In this document: positions 6,724 through 31,735 of the stretch, piece after piece
Layout of the letters: the number at the start of each line of letters is the position of its first letter
Numbering within the stretch: position 1 is the first letter of the stretch
DNA from: Armatimonadota bacterium
GTDB taxonomy: Bacteria > Armatimonadota > Zipacnadia > Zipacnadales > UBA11051
NCBI GenBank assembly: GCA_013178155.1
Contig: JABLXH010000030.1
Location: 1-64,000 of the forward strand
Direction of reading: 5' to 3'
Length of the DNA: 64,000 nt
Position numbers and translations under genes: made by a program
Notes under the pieces: model-generated
The model's database searches: none
What the model saw: the letters and a program-made list of their open reading frames with translations, nothing else
Told to the model about the DNA's origin: nothing

Positions 6724-6737
6724 TGGCCGCTGGGCAC

Positions 6738-11366: not shown

Positions 11367-12533
11367 ATGGCCGGCAAGTTCAGCATCCCCAAGTCCGAGT
11401 TCCAGCAGCGCTGGGCGACGCTGCAGCAGAAAATGGCCGAGCATGACCTCGACGTCCTCATTGCCCACGGCGACGAGGCCGACCCGTCCATGGTCCGCTA
11501 CCTGTCGGATTACTGGCCGCTATTTGAGACTGGCGGCGTGGCCCTGGGGCGCAGCGGCGACCCGGTGCTGCTCATCGGCCCCGAGACGCTCACCTTCGCG
11601 CAGGACCGCTCCAGTTGCAGTCGCATCATGCAACTCCTGGAGTACCGCGAGTCCGCCGAGCCGGAGTACCCGGGCGTAGTGCTGGACACGTTCCAGGACG
11701 TCATCGCGGCGGTCAGCGGGGGCAAGGAAGTCAAGCGCATCGGCGTCGCAGGGCTCACGGTCATGCCGGTGACGGTCTATGAGGCCCTGAAGAAGGCGGC
11801 CGGCAAAGCGAAGCTGGTGCGGGCTGACGACCTGATCGTTGAGATGCGAACCATCAAGAGCGCCAACGAGATCAAGTGCATGCGCGAGGCGTTTCGCATC
11901 AGCGAGCTGGCCACCGAATACGTGCTGAACAACATGAAGCCCGGCATGACCGAGCAGCAGGTGGTGGGCCTGGCCCAGGCAGCGCTATACGCCAACGGGG
12001 CCGAGTACGAGGGCCACCCGACCTATGTCCTGTCGGGCCGCAATAGCACCCACGCCATCGGCCGCCCCAGTCAGAAGGTGCTGAAGCCCGGTGAGCTCAT
12101 CCAGCTCAACATTGGCGCCCTGGTCAGTGGCTACTCCTCCAGTTGCGGCCGCCCGGTGTGCTTTGGCAAGATGCCGCCGAAGATGCGCGACCTGGTGAGC
12201 TTCGGCCTCGAGGCCCATTACAAGACCGCCGAGATGATGAAGGCCGGAGTCCCCGCCGCCGAGGTCGTCGTCAAGTTCGAGGAGTTCGTCGAGGCCGCCG
12301 GATATGGAAAGAACCGGCTTTACGGCCCCTGTCATGCCATCGGCTTGATGGAAGTGGAGCGGCCCTGGATGGAGTCCTCCAGCAAGTATCCGCTGGCCGA
12401 GAACATGACCTTCCAGGTGGACACTTTCCTTTATGTCAAGCAGTACGGCCTGCGTTGGGAGAATGGGGTCCGCGTCACGAACAGCGGCGTGGAGTGGCTC
12501 AGCAGCAAGTTCAACGAGATCATCGAGCTGTAG
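11367..12533 (+). CDS. M24-family (Xaa-Pro peptidase/creatinase-like) protein lacking most metal ligands
   Basis: The protein has 388 residues with an ATG start and GGGAGGCG upstream. It has the two-domain creatinase/prolidase layout: N-terminal domain ~1-160 and pita-bread domain ~165-388. Alignment by motif spacing to E. coli aminopeptidase P shows the five metal ligands changed: the D-x-G site reads LNIG (Asp to Asn), the SD-x-TR site 11 residues later reads SSCGR (Asp to Ser), MVFTIEPG reads MTFQVDTF (Glu to Asp) and G-x-R-x-E-D reads GVRVTN (Glu to Thr). Only the His of CHAIGLMEVERP is kept. Creatinase is a known metal-free member of this fold, so a C-N hydrolase acting without metal, or a non-catalytic binder, is more likely than a peptidase. 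A strong stem-loop follows the stop. Confidence 0.82.
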   Translation: MAGKFSIPKSEFQQRWATLQQKMAEHDLDVLIAHGDEADPSMVRYLSDYWPLFETGGVALGRSGDPVLLIGPETLTFAQDRSSCSRIMQLLEYRESAEPEYPGVVLDTFQDVIAAVSGGKEVKRIGVAGLTVMPVTVYEALKKAAGKAKLVRADDLIVEMRTIKSANEIKCMREAFRISELATEYVLNNMKPGMTEQQVVGLAQAALYANGAEYEGHPTYVLSGRNSTHAIGRPSQKVLKPGELIQLNIGALVSGYSSSCGRPVCFGKMPPKMRDLVSFGLEAHYKTAEMMKAGVPAAEVVVKFEEFVEAAGYGKNRLYGPCHAIGLMEVERPWMESSSKYPLAENMTFQVDTFLYVKQYGLRWENGVRVTNSGVEWLSSKFNEIIEL

Positions 12534-12555: not shown

Positions 12556-12606
12556 CGACCCCCTCGTCTCAGGCGGGAGCCGGAGCTCCTGAGGGCGAGG
12601 GGGTCG
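12556..12606. terminator. Bidirectional terminator-like stem-loop
   Basis: A perfect 11-base inverted repeat (CGACCCCCTCG at 12556-12566 and its complement at 12596-12606) encloses a second stem, CTCAGG (12568-12573) with CCTGAG (12588-12593). It lies between the convergent M24 gene and the CBS gene. It has no long T-run. Confidence 0.75.
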
Positions 12607-12628: not shown

Positions 12629-13072
12629 CTAGCTTCTGAGGTCCTTGCCCGCGGCCAGCGCGCGGATGATGTCCGCTCGCGCCACCAGCCCGATCACCTT
12701 GCGCTCTGCGTCCACGATGGGCACCCGGTTGATGCCCCGCTCGTAGATGGTGCGTGCGATGTCCACCAGCTCGTCGTCAGGGCCATAGGCGATGACATCC
12801 TTGGTCATGACATCGCCTACCCTGAGGCAGTCGGACGCCTCGCCTTCAGGCGCCTCGGTGTCTCCCGTCCCCCAGCGCGCACACTTGCGGTCCTCGATCT
12901 CGTCGATCAGCAGGAGGTCTCTCTCGCTGACCACGCCGACCAGACGGCGCTGAGGGTCCACCACCGGCAACCCGCTGACCCGTTGTTCGGCCATCACTTC
13001 GACGGCGTGCCGGGCCGGGTCGTCGGGGTATACGAACAACACCAACGGGTTCATCAGATCCTTGGCTTTCAT
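12629..13072 (-). CDS. CBS-domain pair protein
   Basis: The small cytoplasmic protein has 147 residues and consists of two CBS motifs with little else: residues ~5-60 (MNPLVLFVYPDDPARHAVEVMAE, VSGLPVVDPQRRLVGVVSERDLL) and ~85-143 (MTKDVIAYGPDDELVDIARTIYE, INRVPIVDAERKVIGLVARADII). CBS pairs bind adenine nucleotides (AMP, ATP, SAM) and usually regulate a partner. The acidic/charged linker (~60-85) is unusually cysteine-bearing. It is the last gene of the long leftward run from 25770, 52 bases after the ParB-like gene, and ends at a strong hairpin. The partner is unknown; the adjacent ParB-like protein is the obvious candidate. Confidence 0.85.
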   Translation of the reverse strand: MKAKDLMNPLVLFVYPDDPARHAVEVMAEQRVSGLPVVDPQRRLVGVVSERDLLLIDEIEDRKCARWGTGDTEAPEGEASDCLRVGDVMTKDVIAYGPDDELVDIARTIYERGINRVPIVDAERKVIGLVARADIIRALAAGKDLRS

Positions 13073-13124
13073 TCAAGCCTCCCCATCGTAGCCCTGGCAG
13101 TTGCCATGGGCGTCTTCTCGGGAC

Positions 13125-13538
13125 TCAGACCAGTGGCAGGTCCTTTACCCGCACATCTCCGTATTGCCGCGCCACCTCGATGAAGTTAGACCGGAAAGTG
13201 CCCGCCGGTGACCACAGCACATAGGCTTCCACGGAGGTCTTGCCGGCCTCAATGAGGCTGCGCACGCGGCAATGGCCATCCAGCAGGTAGTGCGTAAGCC
13301 TGTCGTTGAGGAAGTGTTCCTCCACCACCACGGGTATGGTCAGCTTCCCCTGTTGCACCAGCCGCCGCACAACCTCAAGCTTATCGGCCTCGATGCCATC
13401 CTGGGTGGCGATGAGGCTATGCAGCGGCACGCGACGCAGGTCGCAGTGGACGGCCACGCCCTGGCTGCGGTACACAGCCAGGATCTCATCCACGCGAGCC
13501 TTCTGGCTCTCCGCCGTCACCAGTTTCTCGCGTCGCAT
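13125..13538 (-). CDS. Stand-alone ParB/sulfiredoxin-like domain protein
   Basis: The protein has 137 residues. ATG 13538 is preferred because AGGAG lies 8 bases upstream; an in-frame ATG at 13553 would overlap the upstream stop (ATGA) and add five residues. Residues ~30-110 fit the ParB N-terminal/sulfiredoxin-like nucleotide-binding fold: RVPLHSLIATQDGIEADKLEVV, then IPVVVEEHFLNDRLTHYLLDGHCRVRSLIEAG. The DGHCR segment corresponds to the DGHHR/GxxR nucleotide-binding loop. There is no helix-turn-helix or dimerisation domain, so it is not a chromosome-partitioning ParB. Stand-alone domains of this fold bind nucleotides (CTP, ATP) and may modify partners. It lies 11 bases after a secreted glycosidase-like gene and 52 bases before a CBS-pair gene, suggesting nucleotide-dependent control, but this is inference. 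Confidence 0.7.
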   Translation of the reverse strand: MRREKLVTAESQKARVDEILAVYRSQGVAVHCDLRRVPLHSLIATQDGIEADKLEVVRRLVQQGKLTIPVVVEEHFLNDRLTHYLLDGHCRVRSLIEAGKTSVEAYVLWSPAGTFRSNFIEVARQYGDVRVKDLPLV

Positions 13539-13549
13539 CGCTGCTCTCC

Positions 13550-15883
13550 TCATGGCCGGCGCACCAGCGCTGCGAACCCCTCCGGCGGCAGCTTCACCTC
13601 AGTCAACACCCGACCGTCTTCTTGTCTGGTTCGGACCTGTGGGCTAGCCACCGCCTTCCCCCGGGCGTCAAACACATGCACCTCGGCCCGGCTGCGATCG
13701 CCCCAGCCGAACCAGCCGGAACGGCTGGTCAGGATGCGCTCCTCGGCGATGACCACGCCCGCCCGCAACTCCAGCGGAGTCGTGGGAAAGAAGTGCCGGA
13801 CAAAGGGGTCTGCGGGCGGATCGTCATCCCATACATAGACGCTGTAGACCCCTCCGTGGTCCAACATCCGGCGCGCCATGTATGCCCGCGTGGCCATGTC
13901 TTGCTCGCCGTTGTGGGTGCCCAGGCCCCAGGGGCAACTCAGATGGGTGTCCACCAGGAAGGCAAAGGAGCTGGTCTCCGTAAAGGTGGGCACCTGCTCG
14001 CGGAGCATCGTCCGGGTGAACAACGGGCCGTTGCCGATGAGCAGCTTGCCCCGCTTTCGCACCATCCTCGCCAGCTCCACTTTCCACGGCTGCTGTTGTA
14101 GCACAACGCTGGAGTAGATCTCGCCAACAGCGTGGGTCTGCGGGTCTATGCCCACCGTGCACTGGTCCCACGGCGGGCCCCACGACCAGGCGACCGTGTC
14201 GTAGGTGAAGCAATCGTTGTAGATGCCGTCAGCCTGGAGGTCATCCAGCATGAACTCGACGGTCTTGGTCAGCGCCTGTCCATAGGCGTTGTCCGGCCGC
14301 GGGAGGAACAGGTAGACCGGGTAAGTGTAAGGTGACACCTGCTGCACACCCGCCGCATCCAGCACCCGGCAGTCGGCGTACTTGTCCTGGGCTCCGGGTT
14401 CGGTGCTGATCTGGCTGTGTAGGTACAGGAGGCACCCAAACCCCGGGATCGCCTGATGCAGCTTCTCTCGCCAGGCCCGGAACCCGGCATTCCACCGGTT
14501 GGCTAACGGGATCGCGGTCCCCTCCGCCAGGATGCCGTCGTCGAGCACCTGTTGCCCGGCCACGGCGAACCGCAGGCCGCGACTGCGGGCCCACTGACCA
14601 TACTGCGCCACGCTCTTTGTGCCGTCAGGAGTGGGCTCTATGAGGCTTGGACCGGGGATTGTGAAGTTGCTGCCCCAGTTGCGCCGGATTGCGTTGATGC
14701 AGTCCCAGTAGTCTCCACGGGGCACCGGGTAGATGCTCCACTCCAGGGTGTGCGAGGCGCCTGGAGCCAGGCCCAGCCGTTGGTCAGACAGGCCAAGGCC
14801 CTCGCTGTCGGCAAAGCTCTCATTGTGGACCCGCAGGATGTCATCCTCGGCCACTAGCCCAACCACCAGGTCGGGCCAACGAACCAACGCGGTGGGGTTC
14901 CCGGGTGACCATGTGTACTGGCGCGCCTTGTAAACTCGCCGACCACACAGCAGACGCTCGCCATCGCCCTGACCGACGGTGACGAGGCGGTGTTCCACCA
15001 TCACCCCGGCTACCTGGTCAGTTGGGTTCCTGATGGTATCGGCCACGGCGACATGGTCCGCATGGACGCTGACGGCTCGCGCCACCTCGCAGCCTGTCCC
15101 CTGCCACGTCGCTTGCCCCGTGCCGCCACGGGGCACCGGGGTCCATTCGCCCGCCGTTGTCTCCCGCCATCGCCCCGCCGGCTCGCTGGTACGCGTTCTC
15201 AACTCCAGCGTGCGCCGTCCGACGCGCAGGCGGATCAGGCCGCCGCTGCCCAGCCGCAACTGCATGGGCACCGGCCGCGCCGGGCTCGGCTCGTAGACCG
15301 GCAGGACGCCTGTGGTACCGTCCGCTGCCCCAGCCCCCGGGCGCGGCAACGACAGGCCGATCTCGATCTGGCCGTCCGCGACGACGCAAGTGGTGGGCTG
15401 CGCCAGGAGCTGTGGATGCCAGAGTGTCACAGTGTTGCTACCCGCCGCGACATAGGGTGTGATGTCCCAGACGAAGAGGTACGGGTCGGCATCGGCGACC
15501 ATGTACGCAGGCGGGTCGTCGGTGAAGAAAGCGTCAAAGCCCGGTGAGTATAGCAGCCGCCAGAGGCCCTGACCCCACCAACTGGCATCGGAGCCGTCGT
15601 TCATGGTGAACTCGAGAGGTTTGTTGAGCAACTGGGCCGGAGCCACGATCTGTCCGTTCACTTGCACCCCGAGGAACGGATTGTGCCCGCCAAAGGAGGG
15701 GGTGTCCACCCGGGCCTTGAGGCTCAGGCGCACCTGCTGCCCGACGGGGACTTCGGTTAGAGTGAACGGTACCTGGAGCGACGCCGGGGAGTCCAACCGC
15801 TGCACTGTGAACAGCGTCTGTGACTCGGCGCCTGCGCTGGAGACCGCGAGCCAGACGAGCGTACCGGCTATACCTCGCCTCAC
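13550..15883 (-). CDS. Secreted glycoside hydrolase-like protein, family unassigned
   Basis: The protein has 777 residues from GTG 15883, which overlaps the upstream stop as GTGA, implying translational coupling. The N terminus (MRRGIAGTLVWLAVSSAGAES) is a signal peptide. Residues ~25-180 look like a beta-sandwich (VRLSLKARVD, YLFVWDITPYVAAGSNTVTLWHP). The middle is a second beta-rich domain ending ~residue 400. Residues ~420-700 have the alternation of a TIM barrel: YGQWARSRGLRFAVAGQQ, then VEFMLDDLQADGIYNDCFTYDTV, whose Asp residues are candidate catalytic acids, then KRGKLLIGNGP. I do not recognise an exact CAZy family. It is flanked by other secreted glycosidase-like genes, which supports extracellular polysaccharide degradation. 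Confidence 0.68.
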   Translation of the reverse strand: MRRGIAGTLVWLAVSSAGAESQTLFTVQRLDSPASLQVPFTLTEVPVGQQVRLSLKARVDTPSFGGHNPFLGVQVNGQIVAPAQLLNKPLEFTMNDGSDASWWGQGLWRLLYSPGFDAFFTDDPPAYMVADADPYLFVWDITPYVAAGSNTVTLWHPQLLAQPTTCVVADGQIEIGLSLPRPGAGAADGTTGVLPVYEPSPARPVPMQLRLGSGGLIRLRVGRRTLELRTRTSEPAGRWRETTAGEWTPVPRGGTGQATWQGTGCEVARAVSVHADHVAVADTIRNPTDQVAGVMVEHRLVTVGQGDGERLLCGRRVYKARQYTWSPGNPTALVRWPDLVVGLVAEDDILRVHNESFADSEGLGLSDQRLGLAPGASHTLEWSIYPVPRGDYWDCINAIRRNWGSNFTIPGPSLIEPTPDGTKSVAQYGQWARSRGLRFAVAGQQVLDDGILAEGTAIPLANRWNAGFRAWREKLHQAIPGFGCLLYLHSQISTEPGAQDKYADCRVLDAAGVQQVSPYTYPVYLFLPRPDNAYGQALTKTVEFMLDDLQADGIYNDCFTYDTVAWSWGPPWDQCTVGIDPQTHAVGEIYSSVVLQQQPWKVELARMVRKRGKLLIGNGPLFTRTMLREQVPTFTETSSFAFLVDTHLSCPWGLGTHNGEQDMATRAYMARRMLDHGGVYSVYVWDDDPPADPFVRHFFPTTPLELRAGVVIAEERILTSRSGWFGWGDRSRAEVHVFDARGKAVASPQVRTRQEDGRVLTEVKLPPEGFAALVRRP

Positions 15884-18621
15884 CGTTGGCTCACCGCCAG
15901 GACCCGCAGCGCCAGGCGCTTCGCCGCGTTGTAGCGGGCGTAGGTAGGCTGCACGAAGTCGTCCCAGGCGTAGATCTCCGACCGCTGCTCGCCCATCGGC
16001 AACACCGCCCGGTCATCCTCGCCGAAGACGGCGCGGAGCCTCGCCAGCCCTGCGGGGTCACGGCGCACGCGCAGGGCCTCCTGGGCCAACAGAAAGTAGT
16101 CAGCGTCCTCGTTGCCATCGCGCAGACCCTCCCAGGCGGCGGAGAGGGTGAGGGCATTGGTGGCCGGGTCCAGCTTCACGAGAATGTCCTCGCCGTTCCA
16201 CCACAGGTAGGTCCAGTACCCGTAACCACGCATCTTCCAGGCCACGGCGCGCCAGGGGTAAGCTCTCGCCGCCTCGTAGGGCTGGCTGTACTTGCCTCCC
16301 CCATAGTACCACACCTCGTCCGTCGGCTCGAGGGCGACCGCCGGGGTGTCGCTGGGCTGAAGGGTGCGTCGGCGGTAACTGATCTCGATCTCCGCCTGGT
16401 TGGGGTCGCTGCCGTCCGGCAGGCGCAGGTAGACATGCGGTCCCAGCAGGAAGAATACGCCGTCCTCTTGGTTGCCCCACGGGCTACCGCCCCGGAACTC
16501 AAGCGCCTGACCGTTGGCCCGGATCTCCACCTCGTCGAGTTGCTCGTAGTTGCGCTCGCCTACCAGCAACGGCTCCCGGACACACCACGTCTTCTCCGCG
16601 CCGCCGTTCGTATAGGGCCCCCATTCCACCTCCAGCGTTTCCCGCCTCGGTTCGTAGACGGCGGCCTTGGTGGTCAGGTCACGGAAGTCCCGGCTTAGGC
16701 AGAGCGCCACCTGCCAGGCCTCACTCTCCTGGTTCATCTCGTTCAGCAGGCGCTCCGACCGGCATATTCCGCCGGTGTTGGTCGTGAAGGGACGGTAGCC
16801 GGCCGCCTTGTAGCGTCTGGCGGCGGCCAGCCACGTCGGGATGTGCTCAGCCGGGATCTCATCATCCAGCTTTGCCCAGAAGGACTGGAAGCCCTTGGCT
16901 GTCGCGTACTCCCGGAGTTGCCGGTAGTACCACAGCATGACCGCCCACCCCTCCTCGGAGTTGGGGTCCACTTCGCGACCGGGGAAGACCGCATTGATGA
17001 CCGCTGCCTCCCGCCAGTTGTTGCCGGAGGGCACATGGGCCACAAACCTGGTCATGCCGCGTTTCACAGGCTCCTCAAACCACAGGTCGTAGTAACTCCA
17101 GTTCAGGTCCGGAAGCTGCTCGACAGTAGCGTCCGGATGGGCCTGTCCCCATTCCGCCAGCGTCTCCCCGGAGCCCCGCACACGCAGGTGCGGGACTGTC
17201 TGATGAGGGACCACGGCCCAGTCCAGGTTATCGCAGCGGAGTTGCCGCAGGTTGTCCAGGTAGACGATGAACCGCTTGCGCGCCACCTCATCGAGGTCAT
17301 AGGACGAGAGCGTGGGCACGAAGGCATACCACTGGGTGCCGATCAGCGGGCGCTCAGGGAGGCGGGCGTTCCAGACCTTCACCGCGATCGGCACGGTCAG
17401 CGCCGGTCCCTTCCCACTGCTTAGCTCCATCTCGCCCGCGTATTCCCCGGGGCCAAGGTCGGCGGAGCTCAGCTTCAGCCACAGTCGGCGCGACTTGCCG
17501 CGCTCTACCGTCGCCTCGGTTCCGTCGGCAAGCCAGCCGTCAGTTTCCACCTGCAACCGCACCGCTGAGGCCGGCAGACCCCGCACCGTCGCCCTGACAG
17601 TGCTGCTTTCGGCCAGGCCGAAGAGCTCCAGGGGCACGGCATCAGTCTCCTGAAGCCCCAGGTCCGTCTCCAGCGCTCTCAGACGTGGCGCCGGGGCGCT
17701 AACCCCGCTCGTAATCAGCAGAAAGCCCCGGAAAAGCTCCGTGCGGTCCGGCTCGTAGAGCTCCTCAAGCGGCTTCCAGCCGGCGATTGCCGCAAACTGC
17801 GGCGCGCTGGGCCGCTCCACGGCCGCCGGCTCGGCCTCCGTCGGGATGCCCTCCGGTGTCACGTTGCCGACCCTCCCCAGCCCGCTGATCAGGCCGAACA
17901 GCAGGCTGGTGCTGGTCTTCTGCCCGGCCGGGACAGCCCGGTAGATCCACTCGAAAGTCGGCGTGACCCGGCTTTGAGACCAGAAATAGAACTGCTCCAG
18001 CAGGTCGAAGTCGCAACGCACGAAGAAGCCAGAGCGCTTCTCTGTATCCAGGTAGGCCATCCAGGGGCCAGTCAGGGCCGGGTAGTAGCCGCCAGGCACG
18101 GCCAAGTCATGCAGCGTCCCCTGCTGGTGCAGGTACGCGTGGTCAGCCTCCGTGAGGTCGCCTCCCCCGGGGGTAGCGAAGTTGCGTACCCAGAGCCTGA
18201 AGGGGAGCTGGGTCGGGTTCTCGATGGCGTAGCTGACGCGGAACCACGGTTGCTCTTCTCTGAACTCATAGGTCTTGGCCAGCTTGAGGCCGTCGGTATG
18301 GGTGACGCCAAAGCGGACCACGAGTCGCTGGCCCGTCTGCTCCACGACATCGCCCAGGTACAGGAGGTTGGCGAAATGGGGCCGGTCCTCGAACAGTCCG
18401 CCCAGCCCGCTGTCATCGGCCCGTACGATGTCCTGCCCCAGCGCCTTGTCCGTCAGGGACATCACCCTGGCGCCGCGACTGCCGTCAATCGTCAGGCGAT
18501 AGTGCTGCGTCTCCACCGAGGCCTTGAGGACCCGCCCGACGCCGTCCTTCTCCAACTCGGCGGTGAGGGCACACAAGGGTGTAACGGCAGACATTGCTGC
18601 TAGACACAGCAGTCGCCACAT
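15880..18621 (-). CDS. Secreted DUF4091-like glycosidase
   Basis: The protein has 913 residues. ATG 18621 is chosen because GAGG lies 8 bases upstream and the N terminus (MWRLLCLAAMSAVTPLCALTAE) is a signal peptide; the open frame further upstream encodes low-complexity Arg/Ala sequence and overlaps the next gene. Residues ~20-260 are a beta-sandwich (RLTIDGSRGARVMSL). Residues ~330-430 resemble a CBM-like/NEW3 segment (LSSADLGPGEYAGEMEL). The C-terminal half is a TIM barrel with DUF4091-type motifs: QSFWAKLDDEIPAEHIPTW, TTNTGG, YGYWTYLWWNG and the closing WEGLRDGNEDADYF, equivalent to the family's R-x-G-x-E-D-Y-E signature. Overlap with the next gene (GTGA at 15880-15883) implies coupled translation. 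Confidence 0.75.
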   Translation of the reverse strand: MWRLLCLAAMSAVTPLCALTAELEKDGVGRVLKASVETQHYRLTIDGSRGARVMSLTDKALGQDIVRADDSGLGGLFEDRPHFANLLYLGDVVEQTGQRLVVRFGVTHTDGLKLAKTYEFREEQPWFRVSYAIENPTQLPFRLWVRNFATPGGGDLTEADHAYLHQQGTLHDLAVPGGYYPALTGPWMAYLDTEKRSGFFVRCDFDLLEQFYFWSQSRVTPTFEWIYRAVPAGQKTSTSLLFGLISGLGRVGNVTPEGIPTEAEPAAVERPSAPQFAAIAGWKPLEELYEPDRTELFRGFLLITSGVSAPAPRLRALETDLGLQETDAVPLELFGLAESSTVRATVRGLPASAVRLQVETDGWLADGTEATVERGKSRRLWLKLSSADLGPGEYAGEMELSSGKGPALTVPIAVKVWNARLPERPLIGTQWYAFVPTLSSYDLDEVARKRFIVYLDNLRQLRCDNLDWAVVPHQTVPHLRVRGSGETLAEWGQAHPDATVEQLPDLNWSYYDLWFEEPVKRGMTRFVAHVPSGNNWREAAVINAVFPGREVDPNSEEGWAVMLWYYRQLREYATAKGFQSFWAKLDDEIPAEHIPTWLAAARRYKAAGYRPFTTNTGGICRSERLLNEMNQESEAWQVALCLSRDFRDLTTKAAVYEPRRETLEVEWGPYTNGGAEKTWCVREPLLVGERNYEQLDEVEIRANGQALEFRGGSPWGNQEDGVFFLLGPHVYLRLPDGSDPNQAEIEISYRRRTLQPSDTPAVALEPTDEVWYYGGGKYSQPYEAARAYPWRAVAWKMRGYGYWTYLWWNGEDILVKLDPATNALTLSAAWEGLRDGNEDADYFLLAQEALRVRRDPAGLARLRAVFGEDDRAVLPMGEQRSEIYAWDDFVQPTYARYNAAKRLALRVLAVSQR

Positions 18622-18646
18622 CGCAAGACCTCGCTTTCTGCCGCCG

Positions 18647-19801
18647 TCAGGCGAAGCTTTCCAGCACCCCGCGCAGCTTTTCGGCCATGTTTTCGTAATG
18701 CGCCGCCTCGCCCTTGGTGCCGCAGAGCACGATCCGCGGCATAAGGTACTCGGCGTTGGGGCACAGGTCGGTGGTGTAGTCCGGGTGACGGAGGGCCAGC
18801 GGGCAGCCGCGCGGGCAGTCACGGCCGTAGCCGATCTGGTCGCGAATGGTCTTCTGCTTGTACGCCGGCGCTCCGATGTAGCCGTAGTTGAACCCGAGCC
18901 CGGCGTCGCCGCAGGCCTTCTGGAAGGCCTCCGCCGACACCCCTACCTTGTCGCCCTCGAAGCAGCAGGCCCAGATGTGGTAGGAGTTCACATAGCGCGC
19001 GGGGTCGGGATTGCCCTGCGGCTTGAGAATGGCCTCGTACCCCTCGCAGGCCTGATTCAGGATCCTCGCATTGCGGATGCAGGCATCCACGTAGCCACGG
19101 GCACGCTTCAGTTGCACGCGTCCGATGGCCGCCACGACCTCGTTCATGCGGTAGTTCCACGACAGGCGCTCCGGACAGGTACCGAAAGTGGTCAGTTCCA
19201 CCATGGTCTGGCGCACGTCCGGGTCTTTCATCAGCGTCATGCCACCGTCGCCCAGGGCCATCTGCTTGGACATCTGGAAGGAGAAGACGCCCACATCGCC
19301 CACGGTGCCGGCGTACTTACCGTCATAACTGGCATAGATCGCGTGCGAGCAGTCCTCAATGATGAACAATCCGTACTTGTCGGCAACGGCCTGCAAGGCG
19401 TCCATGTCGGCCATGAGGCCCCAAAGCTGGGTGACGAGGATGGCCTTGGTGCGCTCCGTGACGCAGGCCTCCACACTGGCTGGGTCCAGCAGATGGGTAT
19501 CCAGGTCCACATCCGCAAACACCGGCACGGCGTTGTTGTACATGACAGCCAGAGCGCCAAAAACCACCATCGGGTCACAGATGACCTCATCGCCGGCTCC
19601 AGCTCCAGCGGCCACCACCCCGGCGTGCAAACCAGCCATCGCGTTGACGATGGTCAGTCCATAGGGCGAGCCGAACTCGGCCGCAAACTCCTCCTCGAAG
19701 GCCTTGGACTCGCCGCCCCCGATGGAGCAGAGGTTGCCTCGGTCCAGTACGCCCTTCACAGCCTGCAGGTCCACGTCATCAAACAGCGGGATACCGGTCA
19801 T
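18647..19801 (-). CDS. DegT/DnrJ/EryC1/StrS-family aminotransferase
   Basis: The protein has 384 residues from ATG 19801 with AGGAGG 6 bases upstream. The PLP-dependent fold type I signature is clear: YGLFIIEDCSHAIYASYDGKY, with the Asp that contacts the PLP nitrogen, then VGVFSFQMSKQMALGDGGM, whose Lys is the Schiff-base lysine. The family makes amino-sugars from keto-sugar nucleotides. Some members, such as AHBA synthase, act on non-sugar substrates. The insert YGRDCPRGCPLALRHPDYTTDLCPNA near residue 335 is cysteine-rich and unusual. Its position inside a run of secreted glycosidase-like genes is odd, since no sugar-nucleotide dehydratase or transferase accompanies it. The substrate is therefore open. 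Confidence 0.87.
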   Translation of the reverse strand: MTGIPLFDDVDLQAVKGVLDRGNLCSIGGGESKAFEEEFAAEFGSPYGLTIVNAMAGLHAGVVAAGAGAGDEVICDPMVVFGALAVMYNNAVPVFADVDLDTHLLDPASVEACVTERTKAILVTQLWGLMADMDALQAVADKYGLFIIEDCSHAIYASYDGKYAGTVGDVGVFSFQMSKQMALGDGGMTLMKDPDVRQTMVELTTFGTCPERLSWNYRMNEVVAAIGRVQLKRARGYVDACIRNARILNQACEGYEAILKPQGNPDPARYVNSYHIWACCFEGDKVGVSAEAFQKACGDAGLGFNYGYIGAPAYKQKTIRDQIGYGRDCPRGCPLALRHPDYTTDLCPNAEYLMPRIVLCGTKGEAAHYENMAEKLRGVLESFA

Positions 19802-19851
19802 AGTCGCCTCCTGGGTGTGCGTCCGTCCGCGGCGCTGACGGCGCAGGCTTG

Positions 19852-21411
19852 TCACGGCTCAGCATACACCTCCAGCTCGATGAGCTGGCATATCTGGTTG
19901 GCCGAGTTGTGCAGACAGGTGAAGCGCACGTACCTGGCGGGGCGCGGAGTGAAAGTGTCCACTTGCCACCCGCGCCATTCGCCGGCGCTCTTGTCCACCG
20001 CCTGCTCCCACTCCTCCCCGTCCACGGAGGTCTCAATGCGGTACTGGAAGTAGCGCCCATCCAGATCAAAGAGCATGACCTGGGTGCGCGCGACAGGCGT
20101 GACCTCAGGCAGTTCAATCGTGACACTACCGGGAATGTAGAAGGCCCCGAAGCCGCTCATGCCGCCGTAGAAGTCTATGTTGCCGTCAATGATCTGTTCG
20201 GGGCCGATCTCTGTGCCCCACTCGGGCCGGGCCTCGGCCCCAATCACCTTTGCGCCGCGGCTGGCCAGCGCGAGGTTGGCGCTGTTGTCGCGGGTGACCA
20301 GGGAGTAGTTGCTGAAGTCGAACAGCCCTGAGGGCTGGTAGGTCCCCTTCACGAACTCGTACACCTTGCGGTACAGCTCGCGGCCGACCCCTGGAGTGTC
20401 GTGGAAGTCCTTGATGGCCCGTCCGCCTTCGTAGTAGCCCAGCAGCGCGCCCTTCATCCAGCCGAAGTGGACCCCGGCGTCCAGGTATGCCAGCATACGC
20501 TGACAGTACTCTTCGTCACTCAGGGCCCGGCTGTCGAACTCGATCTCGATGCCGCAACCTGCCATGCGCGCCAGCTTGGCTGCCGTCTGGAAGTGTGTCA
20601 GAGGCAGTCGCTCCTGGGTGAAGAAGAAGTTCGGCTGCAGCATACAGGCGTCGAATCCGTTGGCGCGCCACTCGCGTAGGCCCTGAGCCCCGTAATACGG
20701 GATCCAGTAGTGCTTCAGACCGCGGGCATGCAGGTAGTCGGAGGTCCAACGGACCAGGGTTGAGTTGTCACCGCCGATGGTTTCGTCGGTCCAGTAGAAG
20801 CCGGCCAGGTTCAGGTGTCGGTAGCCGCGTGCACGCCAGTGTCCCAGCACCTCCTGGATGTACCACCGCAAAGCGCGTTGGCGGTCAAGCACCCGGCTGA
20901 GATCGAGAGTGTCCGTCTTGCCCGGCAGGGGCCCAAAGGCAGTGTCCTGGCGCAGCGGGACCGGCAAGGTGATGACCACACTGACCCGTTTGTCGGGCGG
21001 GCCCAGCTTGCCCGCCACCTCCGCCACCGCCGCCTCGAGGCCATCCAGACCCTCGCCGGGGCGGAACCAGCTCGCCGCGATCTGCTGCCAGTCAGCTATG
21101 GTCGGAAGAGGCTGCCCCTCCCGATAGTGATGGAACCAGGTCCCGCTGTCCAGCGCGAACTCAATGAACAGGAAGCCATCGAAGAACCAGTCGCGCGGCT
21201 GTCCCCGCTCGTCAAGGTAGGCCACATAGGGCAGGATGTTGTCCTTGGTCCAGGGCACTCGAGCTTTCGAGCCATGGTAGATGAGGACGAGGTCCTCAAT
21301 GCCGCCCACTCCCGGCCCCCCCGGCGGCAGGTAGCCGGGAACGGGGCCCTGAGCCCAGACACCAGCCGACACCATGGTCAGCACTCCTGTCAACGGCACC
21401 AGTCTCAGCAT
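19852..21411 (-). CDS. Secreted DUF4855-like protein with C-terminal discoidin (F5/8 type C) domain
   Basis: The protein has 519 residues. ATG 21411 is preferred: AAGGGGA lies 8 bases upstream and it opens a signal peptide (MLRLVPLTGVLTMVSAGVWAQG). An in-frame ATG at 21438 overlaps the upstream stop as ATGA and would push the signal inward by nine residues. Residues ~30-350 match the DUF4855 pattern: IEDLVLIYHGS, NILPYVAYLDERG, DWFFDGFLFIEFA, and a barrel strand RHLNLAGFYWTDETIGGDN with acidic residues. Residues ~365-519 are a galactose-binding/discoidin-like sandwich (SVTIELPEVTPVARTQVMLFD, ARYVRFTCLHN, CQLIELEVYAE). Predicted role: extracellular glycan recognition and probable hydrolysis; activity of DUF4855 proteins is poorly established. 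Confidence 0.75.
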   Translation of the reverse strand: MLRLVPLTGVLTMVSAGVWAQGPVPGYLPPGGPGVGGIEDLVLIYHGSKARVPWTKDNILPYVAYLDERGQPRDWFFDGFLFIEFALDSGTWFHHYREGQPLPTIADWQQIAASWFRPGEGLDGLEAAVAEVAGKLGPPDKRVSVVITLPVPLRQDTAFGPLPGKTDTLDLSRVLDRQRALRWYIQEVLGHWRARGYRHLNLAGFYWTDETIGGDNSTLVRWTSDYLHARGLKHYWIPYYGAQGLREWRANGFDACMLQPNFFFTQERLPLTHFQTAAKLARMAGCGIEIEFDSRALSDEEYCQRMLAYLDAGVHFGWMKGALLGYYEGGRAIKDFHDTPGVGRELYRKVYEFVKGTYQPSGLFDFSNYSLVTRDNSANLALASRGAKVIGAEARPEWGTEIGPEQIIDGNIDFYGGMSGFGAFYIPGSVTIELPEVTPVARTQVMLFDLDGRYFQYRIETSVDGEEWEQAVDKSAGEWRGWQVDTFTPRPARYVRFTCLHNSANQICQLIELEVYAEP

Positions 21412-21434
21412 CGCAAGTCCCCTTGCCGTCAGCG

Positions 21435-24400
21435 TCATTGCTCAGCCACCACACAGCCCACAGCGCCCGGGCCGATGGTGAAGGCGATGGTTGCCTGTCC
21501 GCCCTCAATCCGCGCCCGAATCTCCTGGCCGCTGAAGGCATCCCGGTACCGCGTCCCCGGCCGGTGGGGCACTCGCAGCAAGTCGCCCCGGTACGTCCGG
21601 TACTGGGCGTTGTACAGCGTCCAGACTGTGGCCCGGGGTCCGGTGAAGCGGTTGGCGTACACCGTCGGCTTCAGCGTCGGCACCAGCGGGGCCACGTCAG
21701 CGGAGGTGAAGGCGTCAGCGTAACGGTGGCTGATGGCGAAGGCCTGCTTGAGGAACGCCGCCGCCTCCGGGCAGTAGTCCTCCGGCCAGCCCTGCAACCA
21801 CCAGGCCTCGCCGTTGAAGAACGGCCACTTCAGCAGGTCCCAGCCACCCTCCGTGAACTGGTTGTAGCAAACGAGCTGGAAGACCTTGAAGTCGGGAAAC
21901 ATGAACCGGAACAGGTCCACGCGGTGGGGCATCAGGGCGGGGTCGCTCTGCGTCACGGAGTAGCCAAGGGCGCCGTCCTGGTATTGGGAGTTAACGTCGT
22001 TGGGCGTCTCCTCGGTCAGATTGGCGATGTCGGGCGGGATGCTGCCGCGAATCGCTGCTGTCGTGTCCCTTTCGCCCCGCAGTGGCGCTGCCGGCACCGG
22101 ATGGCCATGCTCCCGCGACCAGCAGGTCTTCCAGGTGTCGGTGAAGCCGTACTGGTCAATGTACATGCCATCGGGCTGCAGTTCGCCGGCCACCCGCCGG
22201 TAGGTTTCAGCCAGGTGGTTCCGCCAGCCCGGCGCCGCAGCACACATCATGGTCTCGGTTTCGCTGCCCGGCCACATCAGCGGCTTGCCGTCCTGCTGGA
22301 TAATGCAGTTAGCAGGCACATGCTCACGGCCCCACACACCCCGTTTGTCACAAAGATAGCCCTCGATGTACAGGCCCACGCGCACCCCCATGTCCTGGGC
22401 TTCCTTGATGGCCGCCCGCATGCGGTCGAGGCCCCCCAGCTCGTCGTAGTGGCTGTAGTCGCCCACCCGGCCGTAGACGTTCGACTGGCTGAAGTCAAAG
22501 ATGTGCAGGTAGTCCAGGCAGCCGAAGAGATCGCGGAACGTGTTGACGACCTTGGCCATATGCCATTCGCGCGTCACCGGGTCGGTGAGGTGCGACCAGG
22601 CGAGCACCTGCTGGTAGTAGAACACGCGCTGGAACCACTCCTTGCGCGGGACCTGGGGACGGTACCAGGTCTTCGCCCAGCGCTGGTAGAGGCTCAGGGC
22701 CGTGCGCCAGTCTCCGGCGTGGGCCTGCAGCAGCGTCGGGACCGTCTCGATGGCCTCACCGGGCTGGTACTCGCGCGGCCAGAACTCCGTCCGCCAGGTG
22801 ACGCCTGCCCGGTCCTTGCGCAGGCAGTTGAACCGGTAGACGTCATCGAGGTCTCGGGTCAGGAGCGCCAGACCCCCACCCGTCCGGGGGTTGAACACAT
22901 CGGCCACCTGCAGTGGGTACTGCCCGCCGTAGGCAGCGCGCTGGTCGGTGGGGCGATTGCTGATGAGGCCACCCTTGCGGGCGTACAGGTACCAGGTGTC
23001 TTCGACAGTGCCGAGGCGCAGGTCGCGAAGTGTCGGGAAGTTCACCACAGGGGTTCCCGGCTGCCCCCCCACATAGGTGAGATGCAGATCCATGCCCACC
23101 GCACCGTCGTCGCGAGCGGTCAGCACCAGATCCCCGCGCACCGGCACGCCCTGCGCCGAGGCGTCCACCGGGACGGTAAGCACGGCTGCCTCGTCTTCTC
23201 GCGACACCGTCGGCTGGCCGACCGTGACCTGCTCCGAGGTGAGCAGCACCTTCCCCAGTCCCACTTCAAAGAGCGGCCCCGGCTGGAGCTGAAGCTTCGC
23301 GCCAGTGACCAGTTCCGTGCTCAGGGCGCGCAGCGAGATGCCTCCCCGGGTCCGCAGGTTGAGGCTCAGGAAGGTGGTCTCTACGGTGTAGCCATCGTCC
23401 AGGCGCCGGATGGTCGGGGGCTTGCGGGGCAGCGGGGCCGCGACTGGCGGCGGTTGGGGTGGCAGGCCGTGCACCGCCGGCACCTGGGCCAGGGGGCGCC
23501 CCCGGTTCAGCGTGACACCTGCGATGAGCAGCCGCGCGCTATCCATGTGGTTCACCAGCCGCAGCCGCCGGATCGGCACCGGCCGCAGTGCCGGCAGGCT
23601 GTAGACCTCGACACCCTTGGCTACCTCATACAGCCCCGAACTGAGGCAGACCGGGAACATCTCGTCGGTCAAGCCATCGGCATAGTCCACGGCGAAGACC
23701 AGTCGCTCCGGGGTGTTGGCCGCCTCCATGGGGATGCCGTCACCCATGCGGCAATAATCCATGGCCGGCAGTTTGGCCGCCAGCAGCACCAGCGCTTCCT
23801 GGGCGCGCCCGCTGACCGCGATGGCGGCTTCCCCCGGCTCACCTCGCGGAGTGGCGACGACCCGCCCACCCTCGGGCACGGAGAAGGGGACGCCGCGTAC
23901 CACGACCTGCCCACCGGGCAGCCAGGATTTCAGCCCGAAGGCCCCCAACTGCCCTTCAACAGCGCCGTTGGTCCGTGTCGAAAGGTCCACGGCAGTGAAG
24001 GATCCCGGGGAAAGCTTGCTCTGCTGCCAGCCCTCGGCCACGCTCAGCACCTCCCGGATGTCCAGCAAGGGGCGGCGGCTGGTGAAGCGGATCGTGTCAA
24101 TCCAGATGTCGCCGCGCTCCGCCGCCGAGCAGACCTGGAGGGCCGCGTGTGTGGCCACGAACCTCTCTGGCACCGCCGTGACGGCCACGTGCCAGTCGCC
24201 GTCAGCCCGGAGTTGGTGTAGCCGCAGAGGGATGGCATACTGCTGCGGCAAGCCTCCAGCCTTCTCGCTGCCCAGCCACAGCAGATAGTCGCCCCAGGGC
24301 GCGATGCCTTCGGCCCGATAGCGGATGGCGGCATAGCGCAGCGCACTGAGGTCCACGGGCTGCGGCAGCGGGGCCGAGAACTTCATCCCCACTCCGGCGC

Positions 24401-25085
24401 CCTCGGCCCACAGATGCAGAAGACCGCTTTCGCCCGTCACACCATACTGGGTCGCGTCCTCACCCAGCCAGTCCGGTTCGGCCTGCAGGGGGCCCCAGTC
24501 GGCACCACGGAGGAGCAGCTCCTGCTCGCGGCCGGAGTCGGCCGGCACCAGCGTTGCACCCGACGGGGCCTCGTCCGCCAGGCGAAGGTAGTCCAGGCTT
24601 AGCTCGGCCGGCGGACCGGCGCACTGCACCTCCACCACCAGTCGCCGTACCTCGCCCAGCAGGCCCGCACTCTCCATGTCCAGGGCGAGAAGGTGCCACT
24701 GCCCGTCCCCCTGCAAGTCCGCGGGAGCCAGCACCTGGCGCCCCGCCTGGCTCCCGTCAAAGACCCAGAGGGCATATCCCAGTGGGGCCAGGTCACGGGC
24801 ACGGTAGCGAAGGAGCAGATACCTCGCCTCGGTCACGCCTACAGGCTCGACCGAGAGCAGGAACTTCATTCCCTTGCCGCTCTCGTCCACCCGGAAGCTG
24901 CAGACGCCGTCGTCCACGACGACCTTCGCTCCAGCGGCAGGGTTGGAGAGGAAGCTGGGCTCGGGCTGCCAGCCGGGGTCCGTGTCAAACTCCAGAGGCA
25001 GGATCGCCTGCGCCAGGGCGACATGGGCCCATACGCACAGTGCCAGCATCAGTGCAGCTCGCCACAGGTCATTTCCAGGAAGCAT
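21435..25085 (-). CDS. Very large secreted DUF6259-like putative glycoside hydrolase
   Basis: The protein has 1216 residues. ATG 25085 has GGAGG 7 bases upstream and overlaps the 3' end of the flavoprotein gene by 17 bases. The N terminus (LWRAALMLALCVWAHVALAQA) is a signal peptide. Residues ~25-170 and ~175-330 are two similar carbohydrate-binding sandwiches (both contain a LLLRYRA/AAIRYRA strand and an Asp-rich GDGQWHL/ADGDWHV turn), so an internal duplication is likely. Residues ~560-800 are a beta-supersandwich. Residues ~800-1110 are a TIM barrel (VFYYQQVLAWSHL, YLHIFDFSQSNVYGRVGDYSHYDELGG, GMYIDQYGFTDTWKTC) like DUF6259/GH36-related enzymes. Asp residues of FDFSQ and YIDQYG are candidate catalytic acids. 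Confidence 0.72.
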   Translation of the reverse strand: MLPGNDLWRAALMLALCVWAHVALAQAILPLEFDTDPGWQPEPSFLSNPAAGAKVVVDDGVCSFRVDESGKGMKFLLSVEPVGVTEARYLLLRYRARDLAPLGYALWVFDGSQAGRQVLAPADLQGDGQWHLLALDMESAGLLGEVRRLVVEVQCAGPPAELSLDYLRLADEAPSGATLVPADSGREQELLLRGADWGPLQAEPDWLGEDATQYGVTGESGLLHLWAEGAGVGMKFSAPLPQPVDLSALRYAAIRYRAEGIAPWGDYLLWLGSEKAGGLPQQYAIPLRLHQLRADGDWHVAVTAVPERFVATHAALQVCSAAERGDIWIDTIRFTSRRPLLDIREVLSVAEGWQQSKLSPGSFTAVDLSTRTNGAVEGQLGAFGLKSWLPGGQVVVRGVPFSVPEGGRVVATPRGEPGEAAIAVSGRAQEALVLLAAKLPAMDYCRMGDGIPMEAANTPERLVFAVDYADGLTDEMFPVCLSSGLYEVAKGVEVYSLPALRPVPIRRLRLVNHMDSARLLIAGVTLNRGRPLAQVPAVHGLPPQPPPVAAPLPRKPPTIRRLDDGYTVETTFLSLNLRTRGGISLRALSTELVTGAKLQLQPGPLFEVGLGKVLLTSEQVTVGQPTVSREDEAAVLTVPVDASAQGVPVRGDLVLTARDDGAVGMDLHLTYVGGQPGTPVVNFPTLRDLRLGTVEDTWYLYARKGGLISNRPTDQRAAYGGQYPLQVADVFNPRTGGGLALLTRDLDDVYRFNCLRKDRAGVTWRTEFWPREYQPGEAIETVPTLLQAHAGDWRTALSLYQRWAKTWYRPQVPRKEWFQRVFYYQQVLAWSHLTDPVTREWHMAKVVNTFRDLFGCLDYLHIFDFSQSNVYGRVGDYSHYDELGGLDRMRAAIKEAQDMGVRVGLYIEGYLCDKRGVWGREHVPANCIIQQDGKPLMWPGSETETMMCAAAPGWRNHLAETYRRVAGELQPDGMYIDQYGFTDTWKTCWSREHGHPVPAAPLRGERDTTAAIRGSIPPDIANLTEETPNDVNSQYQDGALGYSVTQSDPALMPHRVDLFRFMFPDFKVFQLVCYNQFTEGGWDLLKWPFFNGEAWWLQGWPEDYCPEAAAFLKQAFAISHRYADAFTSADVAPLVPTLKPTVYANRFTGPRATVWTLYNAQYRTYRGDLLRVPHRPGTRYRDAFSGQEIRARIEGGQATIAFTIGPGAVGCVVAEQ

Positions 25086-25770
25086 TGGCGGCCTCCAAGA
25101 AGGTCTCCAGGGATACCAGCGGTGCAGCGACTGCGGTCTCCGTCTCCAGTGTCACCCGCCCCGAGCTTACCAGCTCCTGCCCTGCCCGTCGCAGGGCCTC
25201 GGTCACCGCCTGGCGCGGCGGTGCCTCGGCGGGCGTGCTGGTGAAGAAATGGACGTGTGGCCGCAACAGACTGCCCGCGAACTCACACTGCAGGTTGCGA
25301 CACATCGCCTGCACCCAGGCCACGGTCGGATAGAAGTTGTCCAGCTCGTAGAAACCACACACCGACACCAGGACCACACGCTTGAGCCCTGCCAGTGGTT
25401 CACGGCGGGGGTGGCGGCAATGGCCGTCCACCAGCTCGATGCGCGGCACAGCCAGGGGGAGGAAGCGGTCCACGACAGTCTTCAGAGGGCCGGGGACATG
25501 GTCCACATAGATCGGCGTTGCCAGCACCAGCGTCTCGCTCTCGGCCACTCGCCGCAGCAGTTCCGCCATGTCGTCGTCTGTAACGGCGCAGGACCCATCT
25601 CCAAGCCAGCAGCGGAAGCAGCCGGTGCAGGGCCTCACGTTGAGGCGCCGCACTTCCTGCCGATCCACCGCGGCCCCGGCTGTCTGCAGCCCCTCGAGAA
25701 ACGGAGCCAGGAACTGGTGGGTGTTGCCGTGAGACCCACGGGGACTGCCGTTTAGAGCCAAAACGCGCAC
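25069..25770 (-). CDS. Iron-sulfur flavoprotein / NAD(P)H-dependent FMN reductase family
   Basis: The protein has 233 residues. GTG 25770 is chosen because GGAGGAGG lies 7 bases upstream and it begins exactly at the flavodoxin strand VRVLALNGSPRGSHGNTHQF, whose SPRG-SxTxx-type loop binds FMN phosphate. A compact cysteine cluster, C-x2-C-x2-C-x6-C at residues ~48-63 (RPCTGCFRCWLGDGSCAV), follows, as in archaeal Isf proteins that hold a 4Fe-4S cluster. VLATPIYVDHVPGPLKTVVDR is the second flavin-contact segment. It heads the long leftward gene run, overlapping the DUF6259-like gene by 17 bases. A redox enzyme at the head of a glycosidase operon is unexpected; the role is unknown. Confidence 0.83.
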   Translation of the reverse strand: MRVLALNGSPRGSHGNTHQFLAPFLEGLQTAGAAVDRQEVRRLNVRPCTGCFRCWLGDGSCAVTDDDMAELLRRVAESETLVLATPIYVDHVPGPLKTVVDRFLPLAVPRIELVDGHCRHPRREPLAGLKRVVLVSVCGFYELDNFYPTVAWVQAMCRNLQCEFAGSLLRPHVHFFTSTPAEAPPRQAVTEALRRAGQELVSSGRVTLETETAVAAPLVSLETFLEAANASWK

Positions 25771-25877
25771 GGGGTGACCTCCTCCGGTCAGTTGCCGACT
25801 GGTTTCCATCCGGAGAAGGGAAACCCCTCCCGCACGGCTAACAAACACCGCCCCCCGTGGGGACTGGAGGGACGACA

Positions 25878-26789
25878 GTGCCAACCTATGACGTCTGCGG
25901 TGTCGGCTGCTGTGCGTGGGACTTCGTGTCCGTCGTGGATCGCTATCCGGGTGCCGACGAAAAAGTCAGCCTGCGGGAGCTCAAACAGATGGGGGGCGGC
26001 CTGGCGGCCACGGCCATGTCGGCAGTCGTGGCTCTCGGGGGGCGGTCCGCCATCTTCGGCATCGTCGGCGATGATGACTTTGGGGCCAAGATCCTGGACG
26101 CCTTCCGCTGCGAGGGTGTCGCCATCCATGGCATGCAAGTGCAGCCCGGTGTCCGTACCCACTTTGCCTTCTGCGTAGCCGAGAGGGGCACCGGTCACCG
26201 CGCGATCTTCTACATGAACGGCAGCTACAAGCGCATGGAAGCAGGCGACCTGGACGTCGAGTCAGTGTGCGACTGCCGGGCGCTGCTCATTGACCACCAC
26301 CATCTCTGGGGGGCCGTGGACGCCGCTCGCCACGCCCGAGAGCGGGGCATCCCCATCGTCGGCGACATTGAGCGCCAGCACGAGGGTGCTCAGGCCTTCC
26401 TGGAGACCGTCACCCACCCCATCGTGCCGGAGCGCTTCGTGCAGACCTACACGGGGCAGGAGGACCTGGCCACCGGTGCAGGGGAGTTGCTGGGGATGGG
26501 AGCGGAGGTGGTCGTAGTCACCCAGGGCAGTCGCGGCGCCACGGCCTTCACCCGCGATGGCAGCATCCATCAGCCCGCCTTCCATGTTGAGCCGGTCGTG
26601 GACACCACGGGCGCGGGCGACGTCTACCACGGAGCCTTTGCCTATGGCTTGGCCCTGGGCTACGACCTGGAGCGCAACCTGGCCTTCGCGGCGGCTGCAG
26701 CGGCGCTGTCCTGCCGGGGACTGGGGGGCAGAGGAGCCCTGCCGACCATGGCCGAGGTAGAAGCCCTGCTGCGGAACTCGCCGACCTAG
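25878..26789 (+). CDS. PfkB-family carbohydrate kinase
   Basis: The protein has 303 residues. GTG 25878 is chosen over an in-frame GTG at 25857 because GGAGGG lies 6 bases before it. It shows the ribokinase fold: KQMGGGLAATAMSAVVALGGRSAIFGIVGDD (the GG-N-A-type PfkB-1 signature), VEPVVDTTGAGDVYHGAFAYGLALG (PfkB-2 signature with the DTTGAGD anion hole and catalytic Asp) and VVVTQGSRGATAF. Such kinases phosphorylate ribose, fructose, tagatose-6-P, 2-keto-3-deoxygluconate or nucleosides; the specificity is not visible. It is divergent from the iron-sulfur flavoprotein gene with a 107-base spacer, and ends at a strong hairpin. Confidence 0.87.
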   Translation: MPTYDVCGVGCCAWDFVSVVDRYPGADEKVSLRELKQMGGGLAATAMSAVVALGGRSAIFGIVGDDDFGAKILDAFRCEGVAIHGMQVQPGVRTHFAFCVAERGTGHRAIFYMNGSYKRMEAGDLDVESVCDCRALLIDHHHLWGAVDAARHARERGIPIVGDIERQHEGAQAFLETVTHPIVPERFVQTYTGQEDLATGAGELLGMGAEVVVVTQGSRGATAFTRDGSIHQPAFHVEPVVDTTGAGDVYHGAFAYGLALGYDLERNLAFAAAAAALSCRGLGGRGALPTMAEVEALLRNSPT

Positions 26790-27713: not shown

Positions 27714-29084
27714 CTAGCGGCCCCGATGGGCAGCGATGGCCTCTAGCGCCTGGTCCCGCAGGGCCTGGGCTGCCGATTCGTCATCGGCCTCGGCCACCAC
27801 GCGGATGATCGCTTCGGTGTTGCTGGGACGAACATGCAGCCAGGACCCGTCAGGCCAGACCACACGCAGGCCCTCGGTGAGGTCCACCTGTTCACCACTG
27901 TAGGCTTCGCGCAGGGCCATCATCACCGATTGGGCCTCTGCGGCGCTGCAGTCTACCCGCGCCCTGACCACAGCGCCCGGGCGGAAGGAGTCCTTCCATT
28001 CGGTGACTGTACCGCCGCGGCGGGCCAGACCCCTGAGGATCAGCGCCATGCCCGCGAAGCTGTCCCGGCAAAGCTGCAAGCGCGGCCAGATTACGCCCCC
28101 ACTACCCTCGCCGCCCAGTGCCGCGTTGTGCCGCCTCATCGCCTCCACCACGTTGATCTCGCCCACCGGGGTGCGCAGGACCTGACGGCCCTGACGCTCA
28201 CCGATCTCGTCGATCATTCGACTGGTCGAAAGGGTCGTCACAAACGGTCCTGGTTCGGACGGGTCGGTGGCGTCGCATGCGAACACGAGCGCAAAATCCT
28301 CGCCCAAGGCGACACCCGCCTCGGTCACGATGGCCAGTCGGTCAGCGTCCGCGTCCTGGGCGAAGCCGATGTCGGCGCCGTGCTCGCGAACCGCGGCTTC
28401 CAGTTGCCCCAGATGCTGCGGAACCGGCTCCGGTGGGCGCGGAAAGCCCCGGTCCCGCGAGTTGTTGATGGCGATCACCTCACAACCCAGACTTCGCAGG
28501 AAGGGCTGTGTGAGGCCTGCTGCAGCGCCGTTGCAACAGTCTACAACGACCCGGAAACGCCGTTTCGCTATGAGCTCTTTGTCGGGCCCGACCAGGTCGA
28601 GGATCTCGTCCAGATGCTTGCGAGCCGCGCCAGGGTCACTCTCCAGCTTGCCCAGTCGCCCACTGCCAACCAGCGTGTAGTTGGCCTGGTAGTACACGGC
28701 CAGGAGTTCCTCGGCCTGGTACGGCCGAAGCATGACACCGTCCCGATGGATGAACTTCAGCGCATTCCACTCCTGGGGATTGTGGCTCGCGGTGATGGCT
28801 ATGCCGCCGCTGGCGCCAACGCGCCGCACGGTGTGCTGGATTGTGGGAACAGGCGCAATCCCCAGGTCCAGCACATCACAGCCGGTGGCAAGCAAGCCGC
28901 CGATGAGGGCATTGCGTGCCATTTCCCCCGACGGACGGGTGTCGCGGCCGACAACGACCGTCCCGCCATCGAGATAGGTCCCGAAGGCCTGGGCAAAGCC
29001 GACAAGGAGCTGTGGGGTGAACGACTCCCCGACGACGCCCCGGATGCCCGACACGCCGGTTTTCAGAGTACGAACAGTTGGCAT
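27714..29084 (-). CDS. glmM: Phosphohexomutase (phosphoglucosamine/phosphomannomutase family), intact
   Basis: The protein has 456 residues from ATG 29084 with GGGAGAGAG upstream; the frame is open further but encodes no family sequence. All four alpha-D-phosphohexomutase signatures are present: the active-site serine loop ITASHNPQEWNA (residue ~97), the metal loop DADADR (~240), the sugar-binding loop GGEGSGG (~320) and the phosphate-binding loop RPSNTE (~425). The enzyme would interconvert hexose-6-P and hexose-1-P through a phosphoserine and Mg2+. The nearby glmS (2.9 kb) and GHMP kinase favour glucosamine-6-P to glucosamine-1-P conversion, hence glmM, but phosphomanno/glucomutase activity cannot be excluded. 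It is followed by a divergent-site paralogue 29 bases upstream. Confidence 0.82.
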   Translation of the reverse strand: MPTVRTLKTGVSGIRGVVGESFTPQLLVGFAQAFGTYLDGGTVVVGRDTRPSGEMARNALIGGLLATGCDVLDLGIAPVPTIQHTVRRVGASGGIAITASHNPQEWNALKFIHRDGVMLRPYQAEELLAVYYQANYTLVGSGRLGKLESDPGAARKHLDEILDLVGPDKELIAKRRFRVVVDCCNGAAAGLTQPFLRSLGCEVIAINNSRDRGFPRPPEPVPQHLGQLEAAVREHGADIGFAQDADADRLAIVTEAGVALGEDFALVFACDATDPSEPGPFVTTLSTSRMIDEIGERQGRQVLRTPVGEINVVEAMRRHNAALGGEGSGGVIWPRLQLCRDSFAGMALILRGLARRGGTVTEWKDSFRPGAVVRARVDCSAAEAQSVMMALREAYSGEQVDLTEGLRVVWPDGSWLHVRPSNTEAIIRVVAEADDESAAQALRDQALEAIAAHRGR

Positions 29085-29113
29085 GGCTCTCTCCCGCCCG
29101 CGACGCTGGCCCC

Positions 29114-30478: not shown

Positions 30479-30604
30479 GGCACTTGCGGCAGTGACGCGC
30501 AACCGGGAATGAAGGAGGGCAAGCCGCGGGAGAGGGGAGAGCAGCGATGGCAGTTCAATGGTGCCGCCCTACCGCCGCGCTGCTCACCCGCCGCTGGCCC
30601 TCCC

Positions 30605-31702: not shown

Positions 31703-31735
31703 CAACCGCATGGCTCCTGCGAGGTGGATAGCCGG

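Follow-up and report, generated by a model that had tools for sequence, protein, structure and literature searches.

Bacteroidota polysaccharide utilisation loci, GH123-type β-N-acetylgalactosaminidases and orphan proteins of the ParB-CTPase fold are the described systems with which the locus analyzed here can be compared. In GH123 and related β-N-acetylgalactosaminidases, consecutive Asp-Glu residues serve as stabilizer and acid/base pair (PMC11087588), and in the ParB-CTPase fold the GxxR P-motif (Box II) is taken in a recent survey as the nucleotide-phosphate motif of proteins that bind nucleoside triphosphates (NTPs; PMC12704722). Our locus is a run of eight consecutive minus-strand genes, termed A to H (12629–25809), in the 64,000-nucleotide window (contig C136:1-64000) of an uncultured Armatimonadota bacterium's genome of 5.5 Mb (211 contigs, 95.6% complete). 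With polysaccharide utilisation loci it has a run of secreted glycosidase-like genes in common, but it is without SusC/D, a regulator or a conserved gene set. We consider it likely that A–H are an ordinary lineage-specific directon, locally assembled in a genome that holds many secreted glycosidase-like paralogues, and not a dedicated new system.

This reading is carried by the distribution of the genes in relatives. Searches with each of A–H covered 40–60 related genomes, the nearest of which (G001) represents another genus of the same family, and about 30 neighborhoods of up to 20 kb around orthologues of B–H were then compared by tblastn with all window proteins. Single-gene orthologues (45–72% identity) are common in related WS1/Zipacnadia Armatimonadota, but no second orthologue of A–H was found beside any anchor in these neighborhoods. 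The G001 orthologues of D (63%, on C65), E (71%, C102), F (62%, C21), G (58%, C109) and H (48%, C40) occupy five contigs of 62–107 kb. In G016 (40 contigs, 98% complete) the best matches of A, B, G and the kinase I that neighbors the run lie on C3, C13, C10 and C6; C, E and F have their best matches on C8, more than 200 kb apart. Clustering of neighbor proteins across the loci returned no run gene recurring beside B, C, D, F, G or H. A sequence-only reading of the window had taken the run for a possible glycan locus, to be judged by conserved co-occurrence; in the relatives the genes are scattered, with no two orthologues together in any genome examined.

Three weak exceptions were seen. In G004, B adjoins a distant DUF6259 protein (26% identity); in G019, a protein distantly resembling D (25%) lies two genes away from B; and in G016 a generic flavoprotein (38%) lies at 6.5 kb from G. 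DUF6259, the family of G, gives 18 matches in the source genome, 17 in G001 and 25 in G004, is expanded in G009 as well (17–25 range) and has no match in 14 well-known control genomes. Because several genomes carry 17–25 such matches, chance meetings such as that of DUF6259 with B are expected, and with so many paralogues per genome no special cause has to be invoked for glycosidase-like genes coming together in one directon.

The layout itself is as the sequence-only reading had described it. Open reading frame listing and a codon-usage gene caller run independently both return the same eight genes, with gaps between called genes of 52, 11, 74, 52, 50, 23 and −17 bp, and both reported overlaps, GTGA at 15880–15883 and 17 bases at 25069–25085, are present. 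Likely starts are 18621 for D and 25809 or later for H. The run is flanked by a divergent PfkB kinase gene (25857–26789, plus strand) and a convergent M24 peptidase gene (11367–12533, plus strand). It is operon-like and not exceptional, since close spacing is common in the lineage (of the same-strand gaps in the relatives' loci, 58% measure 80 bp or less) and the window also contains a directon of 16 genes. Scanning the window for Rfam families and tRNA genes gave no match.

One transcription unit is plausible from this layout, and A–H are probably co-transcribed. The end once proposed for that unit, a GC-rich inverted repeat at 12556–12606 where the run and the M24 peptidase gene converge, is a real hairpin (RNA fold z = −2.63) but has no T-run and no match in an intrinsic-terminator scan; placed between two convergent genes and lacking a T-run, it could serve both of them or neither. 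That the run comprises two or three short adjacent transcription units is possible, if clearly the less probable arrangement: gaps of 50–74 bp could hold promoters, and promoter and terminator scans show no enrichment in either direction, but no inter-gene gap exceeds 74 bp and two of the gene pairs overlap.

Four of the run proteins (C, D, F and G) have N-termini that by eye look like Sec signal peptides, in line with the four large signal-peptide proteins first read from the sequence, and these would probably be exported to act on or bind the sugars of extracellular polysaccharide or glycoprotein. Protein D (15880–18621, minus strand, ~913 aa, predicted to be secreted) had been called DUF4091-like. 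Pfam DUF4091 (PF13320) and GH123 give no match to it, and DUF4091 has none at E ≤ 0.1 in D and six homologues. Instead, a profile of seven homologues matches, over the sandwich-barrel region, the oligosaccharide/monosaccharide-releasing β-N-acetylgalactosaminidase of PDB 8k2j (E = 4.8e-9), with weaker matches (0.003–0.017) to 8k2f, 8k2n, 5l7v and 5l7r that include GH123 structures. The consecutive Asp-Glu pair (D589-E590 in the numbering of the 915-aa translation) is invariant in 7/7 homologues and aligned with that of 8k2j; a GxxxW motif also aligns. D shares this pair and the GxxxW motif with GH123 and related enzymes (NgaDssm, CpNga123 and BvGH123; PMC11087588), but differs from them in its very low identity and in the missing Pfam match, and its activity is a predicted one. 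The best reading places D as a distant member in the GH123-type β-N-acetylgalactosaminidase superfamily, and it would most likely cleave β-linked N-acetylhexosamine of the N-acetylgalactosamine (GalNAc) type by substrate-assisted catalysis through the Asp-Glu pair. A weak match of D to the YidC periplasmic domain (E = 0.02) was set aside, as it covers only ~50 residues of the N-terminal sandwich, and was taken to reflect shared β-sandwich character.

The DUF4855- and DUF6259-like assignments of F and G are borne out by Pfam. F (19852–21438, minus strand, 528 aa, predicted to be secreted) combines DUF4855 (7.3e-85) with an F5/8 type C domain (5.6e-9), which would contribute CBM32-like carbohydrate binding, and has orthologues at 57–62% identity; G (21435–25085, minus strand, 1216 aa, also predicted to be secreted) is a barrel-type glycosidase-like protein (DUF6259, 1.1e-19) with orthologues at 54–58%. 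Protein C (13550–15883, minus strand, 777 aa, likewise predicted to be secreted) belongs by homologue and motif comparison to an unnamed glycosidase-like family that is present in 28/61 genomes and gives as many as 21 matches in a single genome. It has no Pfam match, its profile search against PDB came back empty, and its AlphaFold2 model is poor (predicted local distance difference test score, pLDDT, 48.6). Residues 555–558 of C read YNDC where 15/16 aligned family members have YWDE, the family WDG is changed to WDQ, and HGT (QGT in one member) to EGT, while the motif Asp is retained, as is a Glu farther downstream (E636). Because these family motifs are replaced, C may be an altered, inactive or repurposed paralogue, its activity possibly changed or lost.

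Pfam matches of the run proteins include no SusC/D and no ABC importer inside the run, as had been noted before. Just outside it, a major facilitator superfamily (MFS) transporter gene (5503–6723) adjoins two GHL6/GH42M-type putative glycosidase genes (the set spanning 5503–11095).

Protein E (18647–19801, minus strand; alternative GTG start at 19855) is a DegT/DnrJ/EryC1/StrS sugar aminotransferase (Pfam, 1.4e-69; PDB 7b0d, 4.4e-46), as first assigned, with orthologues at 50–71% identity, and would act as an intracellular keto-sugar aminotransferase (amino-sugar transaminase). Gene I, the divergent PfkB sugar kinase gene beyond the run (25857–26789, plus strand; Pfam, 1.5e-36), is the only gene found to recur near the orthologue of a run member, namely E. 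Orthologues of E and I are adjacent in G031 (54 and 50% identity), and are separated by ~1.4 kb in G036 and by 11 kb in G002. Further along, at 27714–31711, two adjacent phosphoglucomutase/phosphomannomutase-like genes (named by eye) are followed on the same strand by a galactokinase-type GHMP kinase gene, a possible sugar-phosphate module.

Several of these observations weigh against a merely local assembly of A–H. Eight genes stand uninterrupted on one strand with gaps of ≤74 bp, which makes real co-transcription likely. Four secreted glycosidase-like genes in the run, together with the GHL6 pair and the MFS gene within 8 kb, hint at a regional sugar theme. E and I lie within 12 kb of each other in 3/13 relatives (p ~3e-5 under a simple uniform model), so that the neighborhood signal is not all random. 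The relatives compared belong to other genera, and a selected genus-level operon could look the same. On these grounds the run might be a genus-specific functional operon for a GalNAc- or amino-sugar-containing extracellular glycan, in which secreted D, F, G and C would release sugars, E and I would process amino or keto sugars inside the cell, and H would supply electrons. The tight gene spacing, the fit of D to a β-GalNAc-directed superfamily, the E-I linkage in three genomes and the proximity of the MFS and GHL6 genes all favor such an operon, but no two A–H orthologues adjoin in any relative, no importer lies within the run, and the E orthologues of other genomes adjoin GT2 glycosyltransferase, Gfo/Idh-like or amidohydrolase-like genes (names by eye), which suggests biosynthetic or mixed roles. 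We regard this operon as unlikely. The E-I linkage argues for an association of these two genes and not for an eight-gene unit, because in the window they lie 6 kb apart on opposite strands.

Protein B (13125–13538, minus strand, ~137 aa; its start is conserved at 13538, with 13553 also possible) was earlier called ParB-like. It has no Pfam or NCBIfam match, yet its AlphaFold2 model (pLDDT 92.9) and Foldseek agree in supporting that call as a predicted fold: at E ≤ 1e-3 the model matches Atu1540, Noc, ParB (ParB-CDP) and Srx, and free serine kinase was also matched. In a family alignment of 12 sequences the DGH-x-R motif, DGHCR in B, is invariant, including G88 and R91 of the GxxR element. B is thus predicted to be a stand-alone ParB/sulfiredoxin-fold protein that has the fold and the invariant GxxR P-motif in common with the orphan proteins of the ParB-CTPase survey (PMC12704722), but differs from ParB-CTPase proteins in being ~140 aa alone, without helix-turn-helix (HTH), dimerization or ParA-binding region. 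A chromosomal or canonical ParB is ruled out by the 137-residue single-domain model, which has neither the HTH nor the C-terminal dimerization domain. The catalytic Cys signature of sulfiredoxins is GCHR. Sulfiredoxin is ruled out as well, as the order in the 12-sequence alignment is GHCR/GHTR and the Cys is not conserved. In our scan the B family was seen only in WS1/Zipacnadia-type Armatimonadota, single-copy in most carrier genomes; public records list the order-level relatives that carry it under the names Armatimonadetes, candidate division WS1 or Candidatus Zipacnadia.

Protein A (12629–13072, minus strand, 147 aa) is the tandem CBS-domain protein it was first taken for (Pfam CBS ×2, E = 4.1e-29). 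A and B lie at the end of the same directon, and the sequence-only reading had joined them into a nucleotide-sensing control module of a dedicated glycan locus, a proposal to which the ParB-CTPase fold and GxxR motif of B, with the NTP binding known for such folds (PMC12704722), and the CBS pair of A lend some appeal. The relatives speak against it: B homologues in 13 other genomes always have different surroundings, with GIY-YIG/DUF123-like, 1-phosphofructokinase-like, SDR-like and type II pseudopilin genes as neighbors (names by eye) and never A; the best A homologues (45–50% identity, in G016, G020, G011 and G001) lie on other contigs, none near other run genes; and neither an HTH nor an effector domain is present in B. 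We therefore rejected this module as very improbable, its two parts occurring without each other and without glycosidase-like genes. Just as remote is the combined version, a genus-specific operon in which a ParB-fold NTPase B and a CBS sensor A are co-expressed with, and control, secreted hydrolases of GalNAc-type glycans from families outside CAZy.

Protein H (25069–25809, minus strand) is an NADPH-dependent FMN reductase-type flavoprotein (Pfam FMN_red, 1.4e-15) with orthologues at 43–48% identity. Isf-type flavoproteins carry a compact cysteine motif, CX2CX2CX4-7C. In an alignment of four sequences H shows CX2CX2CX6C (CTGCFRCWLGDGSC), shared with the G001 orthologue, while G019 has CX5C spacing; the motif is consistent with the Isf type earlier assigned. 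With the Isf-type iron-sulfur flavoproteins H shares the FMN reductase-like fold family and this compact motif, its cluster and function being putative. Under the favored reading of a locally assembled directon, H would be an electron-transfer or stress flavoprotein, B an orphan ParB/Srx-fold nucleotide-binding protein and A a CBS sensor of adenosine ligands, and these three, with E, would be cytoplasmic genes brought beside the secreted set by local rearrangement, without a conserved functional tie.

Being a local arrangement, A–H is of little importance as a system, and the value of its parts is modest. D would extend the β-N-acetylgalactosaminidase superfamily into a branch missed by the Pfam and NCBIfam models, the family of C is without a Pfam model for all its abundance, and DUF6259 reaches 17–25 matches in several WS1/Zipacnadia genomes. 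According to a published dbCAN-based survey (PMC10290634), Zipacnadia have very few extracellular carbohydrate-active enzymes; in view of the secreted families seen here (C, D and DUF6259), the secreted sugar-active proteins of this lineage were probably undercounted.

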